This document shows positions 43,500-50,323 of a stretch of 64,000 bases of DNA, one piece after another. The notes beneath the pieces were generated by a model, which had not been told where the DNA came from, ran no database searches, and saw only the letters and a list, made by a program, of their open reading frames with translations. The DNA is taken from NCBI GenBank assembly GCA_017961685.1, contig JAGCWW010000082.1, positions 62,001 to 126,000 on the forward strand, written 5' to 3'. How positions within the stretch are numbered: the first letter of the stretch is position 1; each line of letters begins with the position of its first letter. The position numbers and the translations under genes are program-made. This stretch comes from Acholeplasmatales bacterium. GTDB lineage: Bacteria; Bacillota_I; Bacilli_A; Acholeplasmatales; JAEDCM01.

Positions 43500-44357
43500 T
43501 TATCTTCCTTTAAACATTGTTCCTATACCTTCATCAGTTAGGACTTCTATTAGAATTGAATGTGGAACTCTACCATCAATAATAAATGATTTATTTACAC
43601 CACGTCTAATTGCATCTACGCAACAATCAACCTTAGGAATCATACCACCACTAATAATCCCATCATTAATTAATTCTTTAACTTCACTTACATTTACTTC
43701 TTTAATTAGAGTTGTTGGATCATTAACATCTCTAAGTAGACCAATTATATCAGTCATAGAGATTAAGCTTTCAGCTCTTAAAGCTCCTGCGATACGGCTA
43801 GCAGCTGTATCAGCATTAACATTATAAGTATTTCCTTCTCTATCACAACCTACAGTTGAAATAACTGGAATATAACCATTATTTAGAGCATCATTAATAA
43901 TCTTTGTGTTAATTTCTGTGATTTCACCAACGAAGCCATGAACATCATCTAACTTTTTAGTAATAATCATTTCAGCATCAGCTCCACATAAACCAAGAGC
44001 GCTTCCACCCTTTTCGTTTATCATTTGAACTAATGATTTATTAACCTTACCAGCAAGTACCATTTGAACGATATCCATTGTTTCTTTATCAGTTACACGT
44101 AAGCCATTAACAAATTCACTTTTCTTATTTATTTTTTTTAGCATATCATTTATTTCTGGTCCACCACCATGAACTAATACTACTTTAATACCAATTAAAG
44201 ATAGTAATACTACATCGCCCATAACGGCTTCTTTTAAATCATCATTAATCATAGCATTTCCACCATATTTAACAACGATAATCTTCCCATAATATTTTTG
44301 AATATATGGTAAAGCTTGTATTAATATACTTGCTTTTAAATCACTAGTAACGTTCAT
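43500..44357 (-). CDS. argB: Acetylglutamate kinase
   Basis: ArgB phosphorylates N-acetylglutamate, usually the step inhibited by arginine. The 285-residue protein has VVKYGGNAM, LVHGGGPEI, GLCGADAEMI and NVNADTAASRIAGAL. A basic/helical N-terminal extension (residues 1-20) is seen, a feature linked to arginine-sensitive hexameric forms. The ATG at 44357 follows AAGGAGTGATTAAG. Confidence 0.96.
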   Translation of the reverse strand: MNVTSDLKASILIQALPYIQKYYGKIIVVKYGGNAMINDDLKEAVMGDVVLLSLIGIKVVLVHGGGPEINDMLKKINKKSEFVNGLRVTDKETMDIVQMVLAGKVNKSLVQMINEKGGSALGLCGADAEMIITKKLDDVHGFVGEITEINTKIINDALNNGYIPVISTVGCDREGNTYNVNADTAASRIAGALRAESLISMTDIIGLLRDVNDPTTLIKEVNVSEVKELINDGIISGGMIPKVDCCVDAIRRGVNKSFIIDGRVPHSILIEVLTDEGIGTMFKGR

Positions 44358-44369
44358 CTTAATCACTCC

Positions 44370-45578
44370 TTATGATCTATAATCTCCATTGATTTTAACA
44401 TATTCATAAGTTAAATCACAACCAAATGCTTCAGCATCATAATTTCCACTATTTAAATTTACATCAATAAATATATCTTTTTCTAGTAAAACTTCTTTTG
44501 CCTTTTCTTCGCTAAATGGTACACCTAAGCCATTTTTACAAACTGGTATAACACCTTTAGCACTTCTAAATGCTACATCTATTTTTAATACATCAATATC
44601 TTCTAATGTATAACCGATAGCACATAAAACTCTACCCCAGTTAGCATCAGATCCAAATATTGCACACTTTAAAAGGTTAGATGAGATTACTGATTTAGCA
44701 ATCTTTCTTGCTTGATCTTTTGTCTTAGCACCAGAAAGACAGCAAGTTAAGCTACGTGTTGCACCTTCACCATCAGCAGCAATCTTCTTACATAAAGTTT
44801 TTGTAGCCATGTTTAGTGCTTCTTTAAAGATTGGTAAAGTAGCTTCATCAATTTCTTTATTTCCTGCTAAACCGTTAGCAAGTACTGTAACCATATCGTT
44901 AGTTGATGTATCACCATCTACACTAACCATATTAAATGTATCTAGAATATCTTCGCTTAAAACTTTTTGAAGTAATTTTGGACTAATCTTACAATCTGTA
45001 GTAACAAATACTAACATAGTTGCCATATTAGGATTAATCATACCACTACCTTTAGCAATACCACCAATATGACATTCAACACCATTAACATCAAACTTAA
45101 CAGCAACAGTCTTTTCAACTGTATCAGTAGTCATAATAGCTAAGTTAGCATCTTGTGATGTACCATTATTAAGTTCACTAATTAACATTGGAATACCACG
45201 TTTGAATGGTTCAATATCCATTTCTTGACCAATTACACCAGTTGAAGCAATAACGATGTCATCTTCTTTGATGTTTAGTTGATCAGCTAATAACTTACAA
45301 GTTTCATTAGCAATATCCATACCATTAACATTACATGTATTAGCATTTCCACTATTACAAATGATTGCTTGAGCATAGCCATCAGCAATATGATTTTTAG
45401 TTACTACAAGTGGTGCACCCTTAACTAAGTTCTTAGTATAAGTTGCTGCTGCACTACATTTAGTCTCTGAATAAATTAAAGCAATATCTTTTTTATCTTT
45501 GTTTTTTCTAATTCCACAATGTACTCCACTAGCTTTAAAACCTTTAGCAGCAAGTACACCACCATTTATAAATTCCAT
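44370..45578 (-). CDS. argJ: Glutamate N-acetyltransferase / amino-acid acetyltransferase (bifunctional ArgJ)
   Basis: ArgJ transfers acetyl from acetylornithine to glutamate, making the pathway cyclic. The 402-residue precursor has the autocleavage site GMINPNMATMLVFVTTD (nucleophile Thr after Ala) and the flanking IGGIAKGSGM. There is no argA or argE in the operon, consistent with the cyclic route. Whether it also uses acetyl-CoA cannot be told from sequence. Confidence 0.95.
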   Translation of the reverse strand: MEFINGGVLAAKGFKASGVHCGIRKNKDKKDIALIYSETKCSAAATYTKNLVKGAPLVVTKNHIADGYAQAIICNSGNANTCNVNGMDIANETCKLLADQLNIKEDDIVIASTGVIGQEMDIEPFKRGIPMLISELNNGTSQDANLAIMTTDTVEKTVAVKFDVNGVECHIGGIAKGSGMINPNMATMLVFVTTDCKISPKLLQKVLSEDILDTFNMVSVDGDTSTNDMVTVLANGLAGNKEIDEATLPIFKEALNMATKTLCKKIAADGEGATRSLTCCLSGAKTKDQARKIAKSVISSNLLKCAIFGSDANWGRVLCAIGYTLEDIDVLKIDVAFRSAKGVIPVCKNGLGVPFSEEKAKEVLLEKDIFIDVNLNSGNYDAEAFGCDLTYEYVKINGDYRS

Positions 45579-45587
45579 AACTACCTC

Positions 45588-46529
45588 CTAGATGTTTAGA
45601 GAACACTCTTTTTCTTTTCCAATTTTCATATTCATAACTTCAATAGCTGCTCCACTAGCTCCCTTACCTAAGTTATCTAGGCAAGCAACTACATTAATTC
45701 TTTCTTCATTACCAGAAATATAGATTTCTAAGTAATCTTTACCACTTAAGTGTTTTGCACTTAAAAAGCCTGATTCTGTGCCATTTTCATTAAAAGGCAT
45801 AACTCTAACAAACTTATCATTTTTATAATAACTTAAGAATAATTCATGTAACTCTTTAGGTGTTACTTTCATCTTTAATGTATCAGTCCAAAGAGGAATA
45901 TCTACAAGCATTCCTGAATAGAAATTACATACATAAGGATTGAATAATGGTTTATGATCTAAACCAGAGATACACATCATTTCCTTTAAATGCTTATGAT
46001 TTTGACTCATGGCATATAAGCGGGGAGCTTCTAGTTCTTCATCGCCTGAAGTAGTGTATTGTTCAATACCTTTTTTACCAGCACCGCTATAACCACTAAT
46101 TGCATTAGCTGAAATTTGATAATGTTTATCAATTACACCAAGCTTTACTAAAGGATAAACAATTGATAAGAATCCTGAAGCATAGCAGCCTGGAACAGCT
46201 ATTCTTTTAGAGTTATTAATTTTTTCTTCTAATTCTAAGTCAAGCTCAGGAAAACCATATGCCCAGTTGGGATCAGTTCTATGAGCTGTTGATGTATCAA
46301 TAATAACTGTATTAGGGTTTGTTACTAATTTAGCTGACTCAATAGCTGCATCATCTGGTAAGCATAAGAATACTATATCAGCTTCATTCATTATTTTTTG
46401 TTTTTCAACAGGATCTTTTCTAAATTCTTCTTTGATTTCTAGTAAAGTAACATCATTTCTTTTACTAAATCTTTCAAAAATCTTTAATCCTGTAGTTCCA
46501 CTTTTTCCATCTATAAATACTTTTACCAT
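45588..46529 (-). CDS. argC: N-acetyl-gamma-glutamyl-phosphate reductase (short, type 2)
   Basis: The 313-residue protein is the short type 2 ArgC. It has FIDGKSGTTGLKIFERF at the nucleotide site, the catalytic Cys in AVPGCYASGF and SGYSGAGKKGIEQY. It reduces acetylglutamyl phosphate with NADPH. It starts 2 bp before the argH stop region, behind TAGGTAAGTAAT. Confidence 0.95.
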   Translation of the reverse strand: MVKVFIDGKSGTTGLKIFERFSKRNDVTLLEIKEEFRKDPVEKQKIMNEADIVFLCLPDDAAIESAKLVTNPNTVIIDTSTAHRTDPNWAYGFPELDLELEEKINNSKRIAVPGCYASGFLSIVYPLVKLGVIDKHYQISANAISGYSGAGKKGIEQYTTSGDEELEAPRLYAMSQNHKHLKEMMCISGLDHKPLFNPYVCNFYSGMLVDIPLWTDTLKMKVTPKELHELFLSYYKNDKFVRVMPFNENGTESGFLSAKHLSGKDYLEIYISGNEERINVVACLDNLGKGASGAAIEVMNMKIGKEKECSLNI

Positions 46530-46530
46530 A

Positions 46531-47904
46531 TTACTTACCTAATTCATTAGTTAATAATTCGATTTGTTTAAGTACCATTTCTTTACTTGTTCCACCGAAT
46601 GATAATCTCTTATCTACGCAGTTTCTTAAGTCTATTTCATGGTAGATATCACTATCTATTAACTCTGAATACTCCTTATATTTTTCTAATTTTATTTCAT
46701 CTAATGTTAGATTATCTTTTATTGCATCTTTAACAATTGTACCAGTTAATTTATATGCATCTCTAAAAGGCATTCCCTTCTTAGCTAAATAATCAGCTAA
46801 ATCAGTTGCGTTAATGAAGCCTTTCTTAGCTGCATTATACATATTATCTTTTAAGAATGTTGCTGTCTTTAACATTGGAATAAAGATTGATAAACATTCT
46901 TTAACTGTATCAATACTATCAAATAATAATTCTTTATCTTCTTGCATATCTTTATTATATGCTAGAGGAATACCTTTAAGCATTGTTAGTAAGGCAATTA
47001 AATTACCATAAGTTCTACCTGTTTTACCTCTAATAAGTTCTGTAATATCAGGATTCTTCTTTTGAGGCATAATACTTGAACCTGTTGCATAACTATCATC
47101 TAGTTCCATAAACTTAAATTCCCAAGAACACCAAAGAATTATTTCTTCAGAGAATCTTGATAAATGCATCATGATTAAGCTAATAGCATTTGCAAGTTCA
47201 ACTGCAAAGTCTCTATCACTAACACTATCAATTGAATTAAGTGTTACATTTTTAAATCCTAATTTTTCTTTAACAATAAATCTATCAATGTTATGTGTTG
47301 TACCTGCTAAGGCTGCTGAGCCTAGTGGCATATAATCACATCTTTTATATGTATCATCAAGTCTTCCTAAATCTCTAATAAGCATATTAGCATATGCTAG
47401 TAATTGATGAGATAAAAGTATAGGTTGTGCACGTTGTAGGTGTGTATAACCTGGCATAATTAAATCTATATTTTGTTTAGAAATATAAATTATAGTTTCA
47501 ATTAAACTCTTAACTAAGCCTTTTATCTCTAATATTTCTTTTTTAGTATACATTCTAAAATCAAGTGCTACTTGATCGTTTCTACTTCTAGCTGTATGTA
47601 GCTTTTTACCAACAGCTCCAATTCTATTTGTCAATACTTCTTCAACAAACATATGTATATCTTCAGCTTCAGGATCAATTTCTAAATTACCATTTTCTAA
47701 ATCAGTTAGAATAGAATCTAGTGTATTAATAATTAATTCTGAATCTTCATTAGAGATAATACCGCACTTACCTAGCATAAAAGCATGAGCCATTGAGCCA
47801 GTTATATCTTCTTTATACATACGTGAGTCAACTCGAATAGATGAGTTAAAATCATTTACTTCTTTATTTTCTTCTTTACTAAATCTTCCAGCCCACATTT
47901 TCAT
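46531..47904 (-). CDS. argH: Argininosuccinate lyase
   Basis: ArgH splits argininosuccinate to arginine and fumarate. The 457-residue protein has the conserved WAGRFS start, TARSRNDQVA, GYTHLQRAQPI and the superfamily signature GSSIMPQKKNPD. The ATG at 47904 follows AGGAGG. A hairpin separates it from argG. Confidence 0.96.
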   Translation of the reverse strand: MKMWAGRFSKEENKEVNDFNSSIRVDSRMYKEDITGSMAHAFMLGKCGIISNEDSELIINTLDSILTDLENGNLEIDPEAEDIHMFVEEVLTNRIGAVGKKLHTARSRNDQVALDFRMYTKKEILEIKGLVKSLIETIIYISKQNIDLIMPGYTHLQRAQPILLSHQLLAYANMLIRDLGRLDDTYKRCDYMPLGSAALAGTTHNIDRFIVKEKLGFKNVTLNSIDSVSDRDFAVELANAISLIMMHLSRFSEEIILWCSWEFKFMELDDSYATGSSIMPQKKNPDITELIRGKTGRTYGNLIALLTMLKGIPLAYNKDMQEDKELLFDSIDTVKECLSIFIPMLKTATFLKDNMYNAAKKGFINATDLADYLAKKGMPFRDAYKLTGTIVKDAIKDNLTLDEIKLEKYKEYSELIDSDIYHEIDLRNCVDKRLSFGGTSKEMVLKQIELLTNELGK

Positions 47905-47933
47905 AAGCAAAACCTCCTACTTTTATGCTAAAT

Positions 47934-47962: not shown

Positions 47963-49180
47963 TTACTTAATTTTCTTTTGATCTAATAATGCCTTAACCT
48001 TAATTGGTAGACCATATAGGTTAATGAATCCAGCTGAATCAGCTTGATCATAAACATCATCTTCACCGAATGTTGCTACTTCTTCTGAATATAATGAATA
48101 TGGAGAAGTTATACTCGCAGGAATAATGTTTCCTTTATAAAGTTTAACTTTTACACTACCAGTAACTGTTTGTTGAGTCTTATCAACAAATGCTGATAGA
48201 GCTTCTCTTAGTGGTGTAAACCATTTTCCGTTATATACTAATTCAGCAAATTCAATAGCAATTCTTTGCTTGAAGTGTTGAGTATCTCTTTCAAGTGTAA
48301 TTGATTCTAGTAATTCATGTGCTTCATAGATGATAGCTCCACCTGGAGTTTCATAAACACCACGGCTCTTCATACCAACTAATCTGTTTTCAACCATATC
48401 TACTAGACCGATACCGTTATCTCCGCCTACCTTATTTAATTCTTTAACTAAATCAGTAGCGCTCATCTTCTTACCATTTAATCCAACTGGTTTACCTTTT
48501 TCAAAATCAATTGTGATGTATGTTGGAGTATCAGGTGCTTTCCAAGGTGATACGCCCATTTCTAGGATCTTATCATATTGTGGTTCATTAGCAGGATTTT
48601 CTAAGTCTAGGCCTTCATGTGATAAGTGCCAAATATTCTTATCTTTAGAATAGTTTGTTTCTCTATTTATCTTAAGAGGGATATTGTGTGCAATAGCATA
48701 ATCGATTTCTTCATCTCTACTCTTAAATTCCCAAAATCTCCAAGGTGCAATGATTTGCATTTCAGGAGCAAATGCTTTAATTGCTAATTCGAAACGTACT
48801 TGGTCATTTCCTTTACCAGTACATCCATGACAAATAGCATCGCAGCCTTCCTTCTTAGCGATTTCTACAACTCTTTTTGCGATGATAGGACGAGCAAATG
48901 AAGTACCTAACATATATTTTCCTTCATATTTAGCTCCAGCCTTAACTGTTTCAAATACATAATCAGTTAAGAATTCTTCTGTTAAATCTTCAATATAGAT
49001 TTTAGAAGCTCCAGTTTTGATTGCTTTTTCTTCTAGTCCTTCAAGTTCTCCACTTTGACCGCAGTTACCACAAATAGCGATAACTTCACATCCATAATGA
49101 TCTTTTAACCAAGGAATGATAATAGATGTATCAAGTCCACCAGAATAAGCTAAAGCAACTTTTTTAAATTTCTTTTCCAT
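47963..49180 (-). CDS. argG: Argininosuccinate synthase
   Basis: ArgG joins citrulline and aspartate with ATP. The 405-residue protein has the PP-loop [32 protein letters not shown] and a C-terminal dimer region. It is the first gene of the operon. GGAGGATAAAATTT precedes the start and the leader upstream carries two terminator-linked RNA elements. Confidence 0.97.
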
Positions 49181-49216: not shown

Positions 49217-49243
49217 AAAAAGAAAAGAGCCAACAAGGCTCTT
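49217..49243 (-). terminator. Second leader terminator of the arg operon
   Basis: AAGAGCC pairs with GGCTCTT around TTGTT on the minus strand, followed by TTCTTTTT. Its 5' side GCCTTG can pair with CAAGGC at 49300-49305. Confidence 0.8.
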
Positions 49244-49245
49244 GA

Positions 49246-49306
49246 TAACAATTATGCTCATACACCAATAATTAGTGTAATCTTTGCTAAATCAAGATTG
49301 CCTTGA
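49246..49306 (-). ncRNA. Tandem leader RNA element 2 (candidate riboswitch aptamer)
   Basis: On the minus strand there is a hairpin TCAAG/CTTGA. A stem TAGCAA/TTGTTA follows, enclosing an internal loop AGAT opposite TGAGCATAA, and an apical stem TACAC/GTGTA. The internal loop is nearly identical to that of element 1, while the stems differ but still pair. Confidence 0.65.
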
Positions 49307-49311
49307 GTAAG

Positions 49312-49336
49312 AAAAAACCACACCAAGTGGTCTTTT
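49312..49336 (-). terminator. First leader terminator of the arg operon
   Basis: ACCAC pairs with GTGGT around TTGGT on the minus strand, followed by six T. The 5' side CACTTGG can pair with CCAAGTG at 49383-49389. Confidence 0.8.
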
Positions 49337-49402
49337 TTGTAATATACTCATGCAACGTCTTGATGCAATCTTTACAAATTATCACTTGGACTTTCTTCAA
49401 GT
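49336..49402 (-). ncRNA. Tandem leader RNA element 1 (candidate riboswitch aptamer)
   Basis: On the minus strand there is a hairpin ACTTG/CAAGT. A stem TTTGTAA/TTACAAA follows, enclosing an internal loop AGAT opposite TGAGTATA, and an apical stem TGCA/TGCA. It begins 1-2 nt after the predicted transcription start. Confidence 0.65.
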
Positions 49403-49411
49403 TATACACCT

Positions 49412-49440
49412 ATTTTAATGTATAAATGCCTTTATGTCAA
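49412..49440 (-). promoter_or_regulatory. Promoter of the arginine operon
   Basis: On the minus strand a perfect TTGACA (49435-49440), a 17 bp spacer and TAAAAT (49412-49417). The start should be near 49405, giving a ~225 nt leader before argG. Confidence 0.85.
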
Positions 49441-49516: not shown

Positions 49517-50323
49517 ATGGAGATAAAAATAATACAACCAATAGGGCTTTGTGTTAGTGCTTCATCTATATTAGATGAAATATACAAGCATCAAGAAAAA
49601 TATCATAAAATTTATATACTTGGTGATATCTTACATAATGAATATGTCATAAACTATTTATCTGAAAGAGGAATTAAGTTCATTAAAGAGCTTGAAGGAA
49701 TAGTAAATGATAAGTACACTTTAGTAGTTCTACCATCACACGGTACATCACCTTTAGTTTATGAAAAATTAAAAAAATATAACTACATAGATTTAACTTG
49801 TCCAAAGATTAAAAAAATGCATGAATTTATTATAAATAACAGTGATAAAGATATTATATTTTTAGGTCAACCTAATCACAGTGAAACAGTTGCGTCAAGA
49901 GACTATGATAATGTTAAAGTAATTAGTAGTAAGAAAGATATAGATAAATTAGGAGAATTAAATAATCCTATTTTAATGTGTCAAACAACATTTAATAAAG
50001 ATATATTTGTTGAAATATCAGAGATATTAAAAGAAAAATATCCTAATATTGTTATTAATAATACTTTATGTAATATACCTTTAGATAGAATAATTAATAT
50101 TAACTCAACAGATTGTGATTTATTACTTGTTATAGGTTCTAAAACATCGAGTAATGCAAACGAAATAAGTAAATCTAAGCCTAATTCTATGATTATTGGT
50201 AAGGTTGAAGAAATAGATTTAGATGAGCTTAGAAAGTATAAAAAGATAGCTATCGCATCAGCATCATCAACACCTATTCAACAAGTTGATGAAATAGTTG
50301 AATACATAAGAAAAAACGCATAA
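49517..50323 (+). CDS. ispH: 4-hydroxy-3-methylbut-2-enyl diphosphate reductase, divergent
   Basis: IspH makes IPP and DMAPP at the end of the MEP pathway using a [4Fe-4S] cluster. The three cluster cysteines are present at 12, 95 (DLTCP) and 185 (NTLC). Also seen are LHNEYVINYLSERGI, LPSHGTSP, GQPNHSET and SASSTP. The family's usual GFCxGV and HPEVxG are changed (GLCVSA, HSETVA), and at 268 residues it is somewhat short, so it is a divergent member. It is monocistronic and divergent from the arg operon. Confidence 0.85.
   Translation: MEIKIIQPIGLCVSASSILDEIYKHQEKYHKIYILGDILHNEYVINYLSERGIKFIKELEGIVNDKYTLVVLPSHGTSPLVYEKLKKYNYIDLTCPKIKKMHEFIINNSDKDIIFLGQPNHSETVASRDYDNVKVISSKKDIDKLGELNNPILMCQTTFNKDIFVEISEILKEKYPNIVINNTLCNIPLDRIININSTDCDLLLVIGSKTSSNANEISKSKPNSMIIGKVEEIDLDELRKYKKIAIASASSTPIQQVDEIVEYIRKNA

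Follow-up and report, generated by a model that had tools for sequence, protein, structure and literature searches.

The window, that is, the whole stretch of 64,000 nucleotides that was analysed, carries on its minus strand an arginine operon consisting of argG, argH, argC, argJ and argB. Positions 49217-49440 represent the leader of argG, and both coordinates and sequence match the preliminary description of this region. Two RNA elements are arranged in tandem within 49402-49217 (minus strand) ahead of argG-argH-argC-argJ-argB (Table 1). The intergenic region is common to the arg leader and a divergently oriented LytB/IspH gene (49517-50323, plus strand). The fold of the 251-nt leader was more stable than those of 200 out of 200 shuffled sequences (z = -4.5).

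Table 1. Positions of promoter, genes and RNA features of the arginine operon in the window
Feature	Position	Strand	Basis
Promoter TTGACA-17-TAAAAT, sigma-70-type	49412-49440	-	11/12 consensus matches; same place in sister leaders
argG, argininosuccinate synthase, first gene of the operon	47963-49180	-	Pfam PF00764/PF20979
argH, argC, argJ, argB, next in the operon	43500-47910	-	Pfam; argB as AA_kinase, PF00696
Element 1, hairpin P0 ACTTG..CAAGT; sequesters 5' strand of P1	49384-49402	-	Sequence; kept in five leaders
Element 1, P1 antiterminator pairing CCAAGTG (49389-49383) / CACTTGG (49329-49323); overlaps 5' arm of terminator	49323-49389	-	Sequence; two-state energies
Element 1, sensor stem: P2 TTTGTAA/TTACAAA, loop AAAGAT (49373-49368) // TGAGTATA (49350-49343), P3 TGCA/TGCA	49336-49378	-	Model matches; conserved loop, covarying P3
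Element 1, intrinsic terminator ACCAC-TTGGT-GTGGT-TTTTT	49311-49331	-	Sequence; folds
Element 2, hairpin P0 TCAAG..CTTGA	49292-49306	-	Sequence; kept in five leaders
Element 2, P1 antiterminator pairing CAAGGC (49305-49300) / GCCTTG (49239-49234)	49234-49305	-	Less than 1 kcal from terminator state
Element 2, sensor stem: P2 TAGCAA/TTGTTA, loop AAAGAT (49285-49280) // TGAGCATA (49260-49253), P3 TACAC/GTGTA	49246-49289	-	Model matches; loop/P3 conservation
Element 2, intrinsic terminator AGAGCC..GGCTCT with T-rich tail	49217-49242	-	Sequence

That two elements of the same plan stand in series, each with its own terminator, is borne out by the minus-strand sequence, and the alternative pairings proposed for them (CCAAGTG/CACTTGG and CAAGGC/GCCTTG) are present. 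The internal loop had been described as nearly invariant AGAT opposite TGAGYATA; the near-invariance stands, but the true extent of the loop is AAAGAT/TGAGYATA.

A second tandem pair, 82% identical, is found in the same genome upstream of an amino-acid ABC transporter gene that encodes a family-3 solute-binding protein. In two further genomes of the genus, the tandem pair stands ahead of argG, of a transporter gene of this type, or of both; in all, there are ten elements in five leaders of three genomes. In these ten elements, changes on both sides of stem pairs were counted in 13 cells compared to 5.3 in shuffles, in agreement with the earlier view that the stems of elements 1 and 2 differ in sequence yet pair.

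Distribution of the element

Relatives, a search for which had been called for in the preliminary description, were found outside this genome: in further genera, in another family, in one more lineage of the class and in a different phylum. A core model restricted to the window genus (R1) was discarded after it gave nothing convincing outside this genus in 160 genomes of the order, its P3 sequence being too specific. In these 160 genomes, argG was found in only three genera. The argG genes of the two genera belonging to another family are about 73-79% identical, and the element is present in all 23 of their argG leaders with a complete upstream region. These leaders were obtained by reading upstream of argG and the motif was not used as bait. 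They contain AAAGAT, a stem and TGAGTATA, with a stem (AGTTTAA/TTAAACT) that differs from those in the window.

A second core model, based on the window genus and this other-family group, matched in 31 of the 160 genomes, which represent five genera and two families (threshold E <= 0.02; model E-values are rough). The matches inspected from the order search are leaders, and none resembled a chance match in a coding sequence. In genera g9 and g26, whose genomes lack an argG match, the element is located upstream of a family-3 solute-binding protein gene. In genus g26, the elements form a tandem pair; its first member (P3 CGAA/TTCG, P1 TAGACAG/CTGTCTA) scores weakly (E 0.08-0.16) and was accepted on its anatomy. 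In one further genome without an argG match (L096), an element precedes a gene for a HAD-like hydrolase; it belongs to the H1 type, which is described below. The his operon of the window gave no match in the search of the order. Absence is weak evidence in these whole-genome searches, which score part of the first-look candidates and include many fragmented genomes, with the genome of the window itself being 82% complete.

In the 23 argG leaders of the other family (f2), a T-box motif follows downstream of the element and its terminator. Six T-boxes among the loci scanned exceed the Rfam cut-off. The specifier is CGC or CGT (Arg) in 16 of the 23 leaders, and in the other seven it differs from a plain CGN codon. 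At the specifier position, L069, L072, L078 and L081 have GAA-TGA rather than GAA-CGN, while L071, L076 and L086 are ambiguous. T-boxes (RF00230) of the Arg type likewise control argG by termination, and the argG gene of C. difficile has been listed with a T-box (PMC11477304). In contrast to the T-box, the element has neither an Rfam T-box match nor a specifier loop. The reported absence of T-box hallmarks was therefore correct for the window leader, which has no T-box match, but it does not extend to all relatives, in which the element may directly precede a T-box.

A search of 395 genomes of the class revealed a tandem pair in lineage G442, which belongs to another family; the gene downstream encodes a family-3 solute-binding protein. 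Element 1 of this pair consists of P1 TTAAGGC/GCCTTAA, P2 TTTTACA/TGTAAAA and P3 AGAAA/TTTCT, and element 2 of P2 TTTTTACA/TGTAAAAA and P3 AGAAGTA/TACTTCT; each has its own terminator. These matches (E = 0.0004 and 0.0012 per genome) were accepted on anatomy and gene context. Weaker matches of the class search (L131-L140) were mostly coding sequence and were discarded, and a search of the phylum gave no additions over the class search.

A pattern scan of 84,980 species, with one genome per species, revealed six leaders with the same core in Gastranaerophilales, which lie outside the phylum of the window. Since these six had been selected by the pattern itself, orthologues were retrieved via the downstream protein. 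Three orthologues from outside the pattern selection keep AAAGAT/TGAGCATA, with P3 TGCGG/CCGCA replacing TGCAG/CTGCA. The remaining 26 orthologues do not have the core, and many have an Arg-rich leader peptide there instead, which suggests that the downstream gene may be arginine-controlled. These peptides (L149-L174; for example MYYIIRRSRRFLKGLF*) are encoded about 300-400 nt before the start of the protein. In the leaders read, mutually competing pairings (GGCTTGTT/AACAAGGCC) come after the peptide, then a terminator and finally a protein of about 460 residues without known function. This layout looks like that of a classic arginine attenuator. A second conserved short ORF (..RRNSIIKANAPIVKLMNLIWGL*) that is arrest-peptide-like lies shortly before this gene, at a distance of about 110-190 nt, in L145-L174. 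Matches of the wide scan in Rodentibacter, Photobacterium, Lachnospiraceae and others were rejected as chance hits in apparent coding sequence, and the pattern scan gave no match in viral contigs.

Outside Gastranaerophilales, the downstream gene is argG or an amino-acid ABC transporter gene in nearly all cases. Some pattern matches (L032, L034, L037, L038) do look like chance hits in coding sequence, as would be expected if the element were a chance resemblance or a genus-specific repeat. However, the element recurs in argG and transporter leaders of several genera with differing stem sequences. The recurrence of the core is not due to chance, and this explanation, which retains next to no probability, is already refuted.

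Covariation and competing structures

In total, 51 elements from three lineages were found, comprising 42 distinct sequences. Among these 42, twelve loop positions are invariant and the thirteenth is C or T; the first A of AAAGAT is replaced by C in two sequences. All six pairs of P3 change on both sides, and the covariation score of P3 is 0.83 compared to at most 0.13 when the partners are slid by 1 to 3 columns. These values have to be read with the fact that an alignment fitted to the model favours the structure and that related sequences inflate the counts. The differences between the stems of the lineages are visible in the raw sequences. The element is thus a conserved structured 5' leader RNA with covarying stems, as is typical of riboswitches.

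This covariation also argues against leader-peptide attenuation or a DNA operator for ArgR, in which the hairpins would be incidental. Attenuation would be in line with the Arg-rich leader peptides that are encoded in distant leaders of the Gastranaerophilales gene, and TGAGYATAWT resembles half an ARG box. However, no conserved ORF with Arg codons was found in the five leaders of the window genus, and the C-terminal domain of ArgR was detected in none of the 160 genomes of the order, in which the positive controls were detected. Both variants are very improbable.

The proposed sensor is a hairpin with the asymmetric internal loop AAAGAT // TGAGYATA beneath the variable stem P3. Binding of a small-molecule ligand, most likely free L-arginine, would hold the strands of the loop so that the terminator forms and the gene is switched off, while without ligand the antiterminator would form and the operon would be transcribed. 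With two elements in the window, transcription would have to clear two terminators.

Two types of switching architecture can be distinguished. In 26 leaders (g2, g28, g9 and g26), nine bases (ATAATTATG) that start inside the 3' strand of the loop can pair with the downstream sequence CATAATTAT to form hairpin H1. In addition, H2, the antiterminator and the terminator compete for one strand, with sequences that vary among the 26 leaders; the script recovered the full set of H1, H2, antiterminator and terminator in 23 of them and missed it in three. If the loop were held in these leaders, H1 could not form, H2 would take the antiterminator strand and the terminator would form (OFF). In the unbound state, the 3' strand of the loop would pair in H1 and release the antiterminator. 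As far as can be deduced from these pairings, binding would turn the gene off in the 26 H1-type leaders.

A different arrangement is seen in the window genus, in element 1 of G442, in the first element of g26 and in Gastranaerophilales, where the sensor stem lies within the antiterminator P1; hairpin P0 is a competitor of P1 in the window. This P1-type layout is the usual look of a ligand-ON switch, which leaves the sign of window-type elements unsettled. The energies of the two states are within about 5 kcal/mol, which is compatible with a switch but does not fix the sign of P1-type elements. Mutually exclusive structures in the expression platform are thus predicted at the level of sequence and energy. 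An OFF sign is favoured for all elements, including those in the window, because both architectures coexist in a single g26 leader ahead of one gene, and because repression by an end product would be suitable for biosynthesis and uptake genes.

Terminator overlap is also known from the RNA antiterminator (RAT) sites of BglG/LicT proteins, which are short hairpins with conserved loops like the element. Accordingly, the loop could be the site of an arginine- or starvation-responsive regulatory protein that stabilises or blocks the antiterminator. The combination of a short hairpin, a conserved asymmetric loop and terminator overlap is a typical layout for such a site; only about 13 loop bases are conserved, and P1-type elements place the hairpin atop the antiterminator. 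On the other hand, the loop is unchanged across two phyla, so that one and the same protein would be required throughout, a regulator gene was not noticed in the vicinity of the elements read, and H1-type leaders employ the loop strand itself for switching. Moreover, the element occurs at arginine genes and RAT at sugar genes, and the loop sequence presumably differs from the LicT site. A protein-binding site is considered unlikely, but it is the main rival reading.

Ligand and classification

A search against Rfam 15 gave no family at the gathering threshold in the window, where scores were at chance level, and the relatives match only the separate T-box. Together with the relatives found elsewhere, this supports the earlier proposal that the two elements form a tandem sensor of an undescribed kind, acting through transcription termination and responding to arginine or an intermediate of the pathway, with the ligand remaining putative.

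Association with amino-acid biosynthesis and transport genes and with transcription termination is a trait that the element shares with the lysine riboswitch (L box) and with riboswitches for other amino acids. The element differs from the lysine riboswitch in having no Rfam match and in consisting of one hairpin with one internal loop rather than a multi-stem junction. Similarity also exists to the ppGpp riboswitch (ykkC subtype 2a), which controls amino-acid biosynthesis genes (PMC7266159), but the element has no Rfam match to ykkC and its context is limited to arginine and amino-acid uptake. Among published candidates, the trpB motif, an orphan with more than 900 members in Firmicutes and Fusobacteria, is nearest in layout, with amino-acid-type ABC transporters downstream in Firmicutes, a P1-shoulder antiterminator and an intrinsic terminator (PMC11109978). 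Its gene contexts, trpB and an uncharacterised transporter, are different (PMC11109978), and the element is provisionally set apart from it on this description.

For the element, a conserved loop, a covarying stem, possible competing structures, the gene context and the tandem arrangement have been observed. It probably represents an undescribed class of cis-acting, transcription-terminating RNA switches that control genes of arginine biosynthesis and amino-acid uptake and would turn them off on binding, most likely of arginine. Arginine is taken as the putative ligand because argG and family-3 amino-acid transporter genes lie downstream, an Arg T-box motif follows the element in one family, and ArgR is absent from the order. 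A larger loop would be expected of an amino-acid sensor, and the controlled gene in Gastranaerophilales has no known function.

A riboswitch for another ligand, such as ornithine, citrulline, argininosuccinate or a starvation signal, which may turn genes on, would agree with the P1-type anatomy and with the precedent of ppGpp riboswitches at amino-acid biosynthesis genes (PMC7266159). Conversely, the contexts are arginine or amino-acid uptake, the his operon of the window yielded no element in the order search, and the H1-type anatomy indicates OFF, which suits an end product. Such a ligand is quite unlikely.

The literature searched, which is thin in subscription journals, contains no accepted natural arginine riboswitch, and a claim for one in fungi has been judged insufficiently supported (PMC10043782). 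The chances are even that the element is the first natural arginine-sensing class, with a very small internal-loop aptamer that occurs in series or stacked before an Arg T-box in ArgR-less lineages of two phyla. If so, the minimal arginine-recognising loop would be a compact test case for the recognition of amino acids by RNA. In leaders with element and T-box, one leader would read both free arginine and the charging of tRNA-Arg, which could be compared side by side.

For three scanned family-3 solute-binding proteins, Lys/Arg/Orn binding proteins are among the nearest named models; none of these models reaches the cut-off, and the transported amino acid is therefore uncertain. In L107 and L117, short ORFs with tandem Arg codons (MKVRRNVLCSIRKVQETK and MEGRRFFNI) are located between the terminator and the transporter gene.
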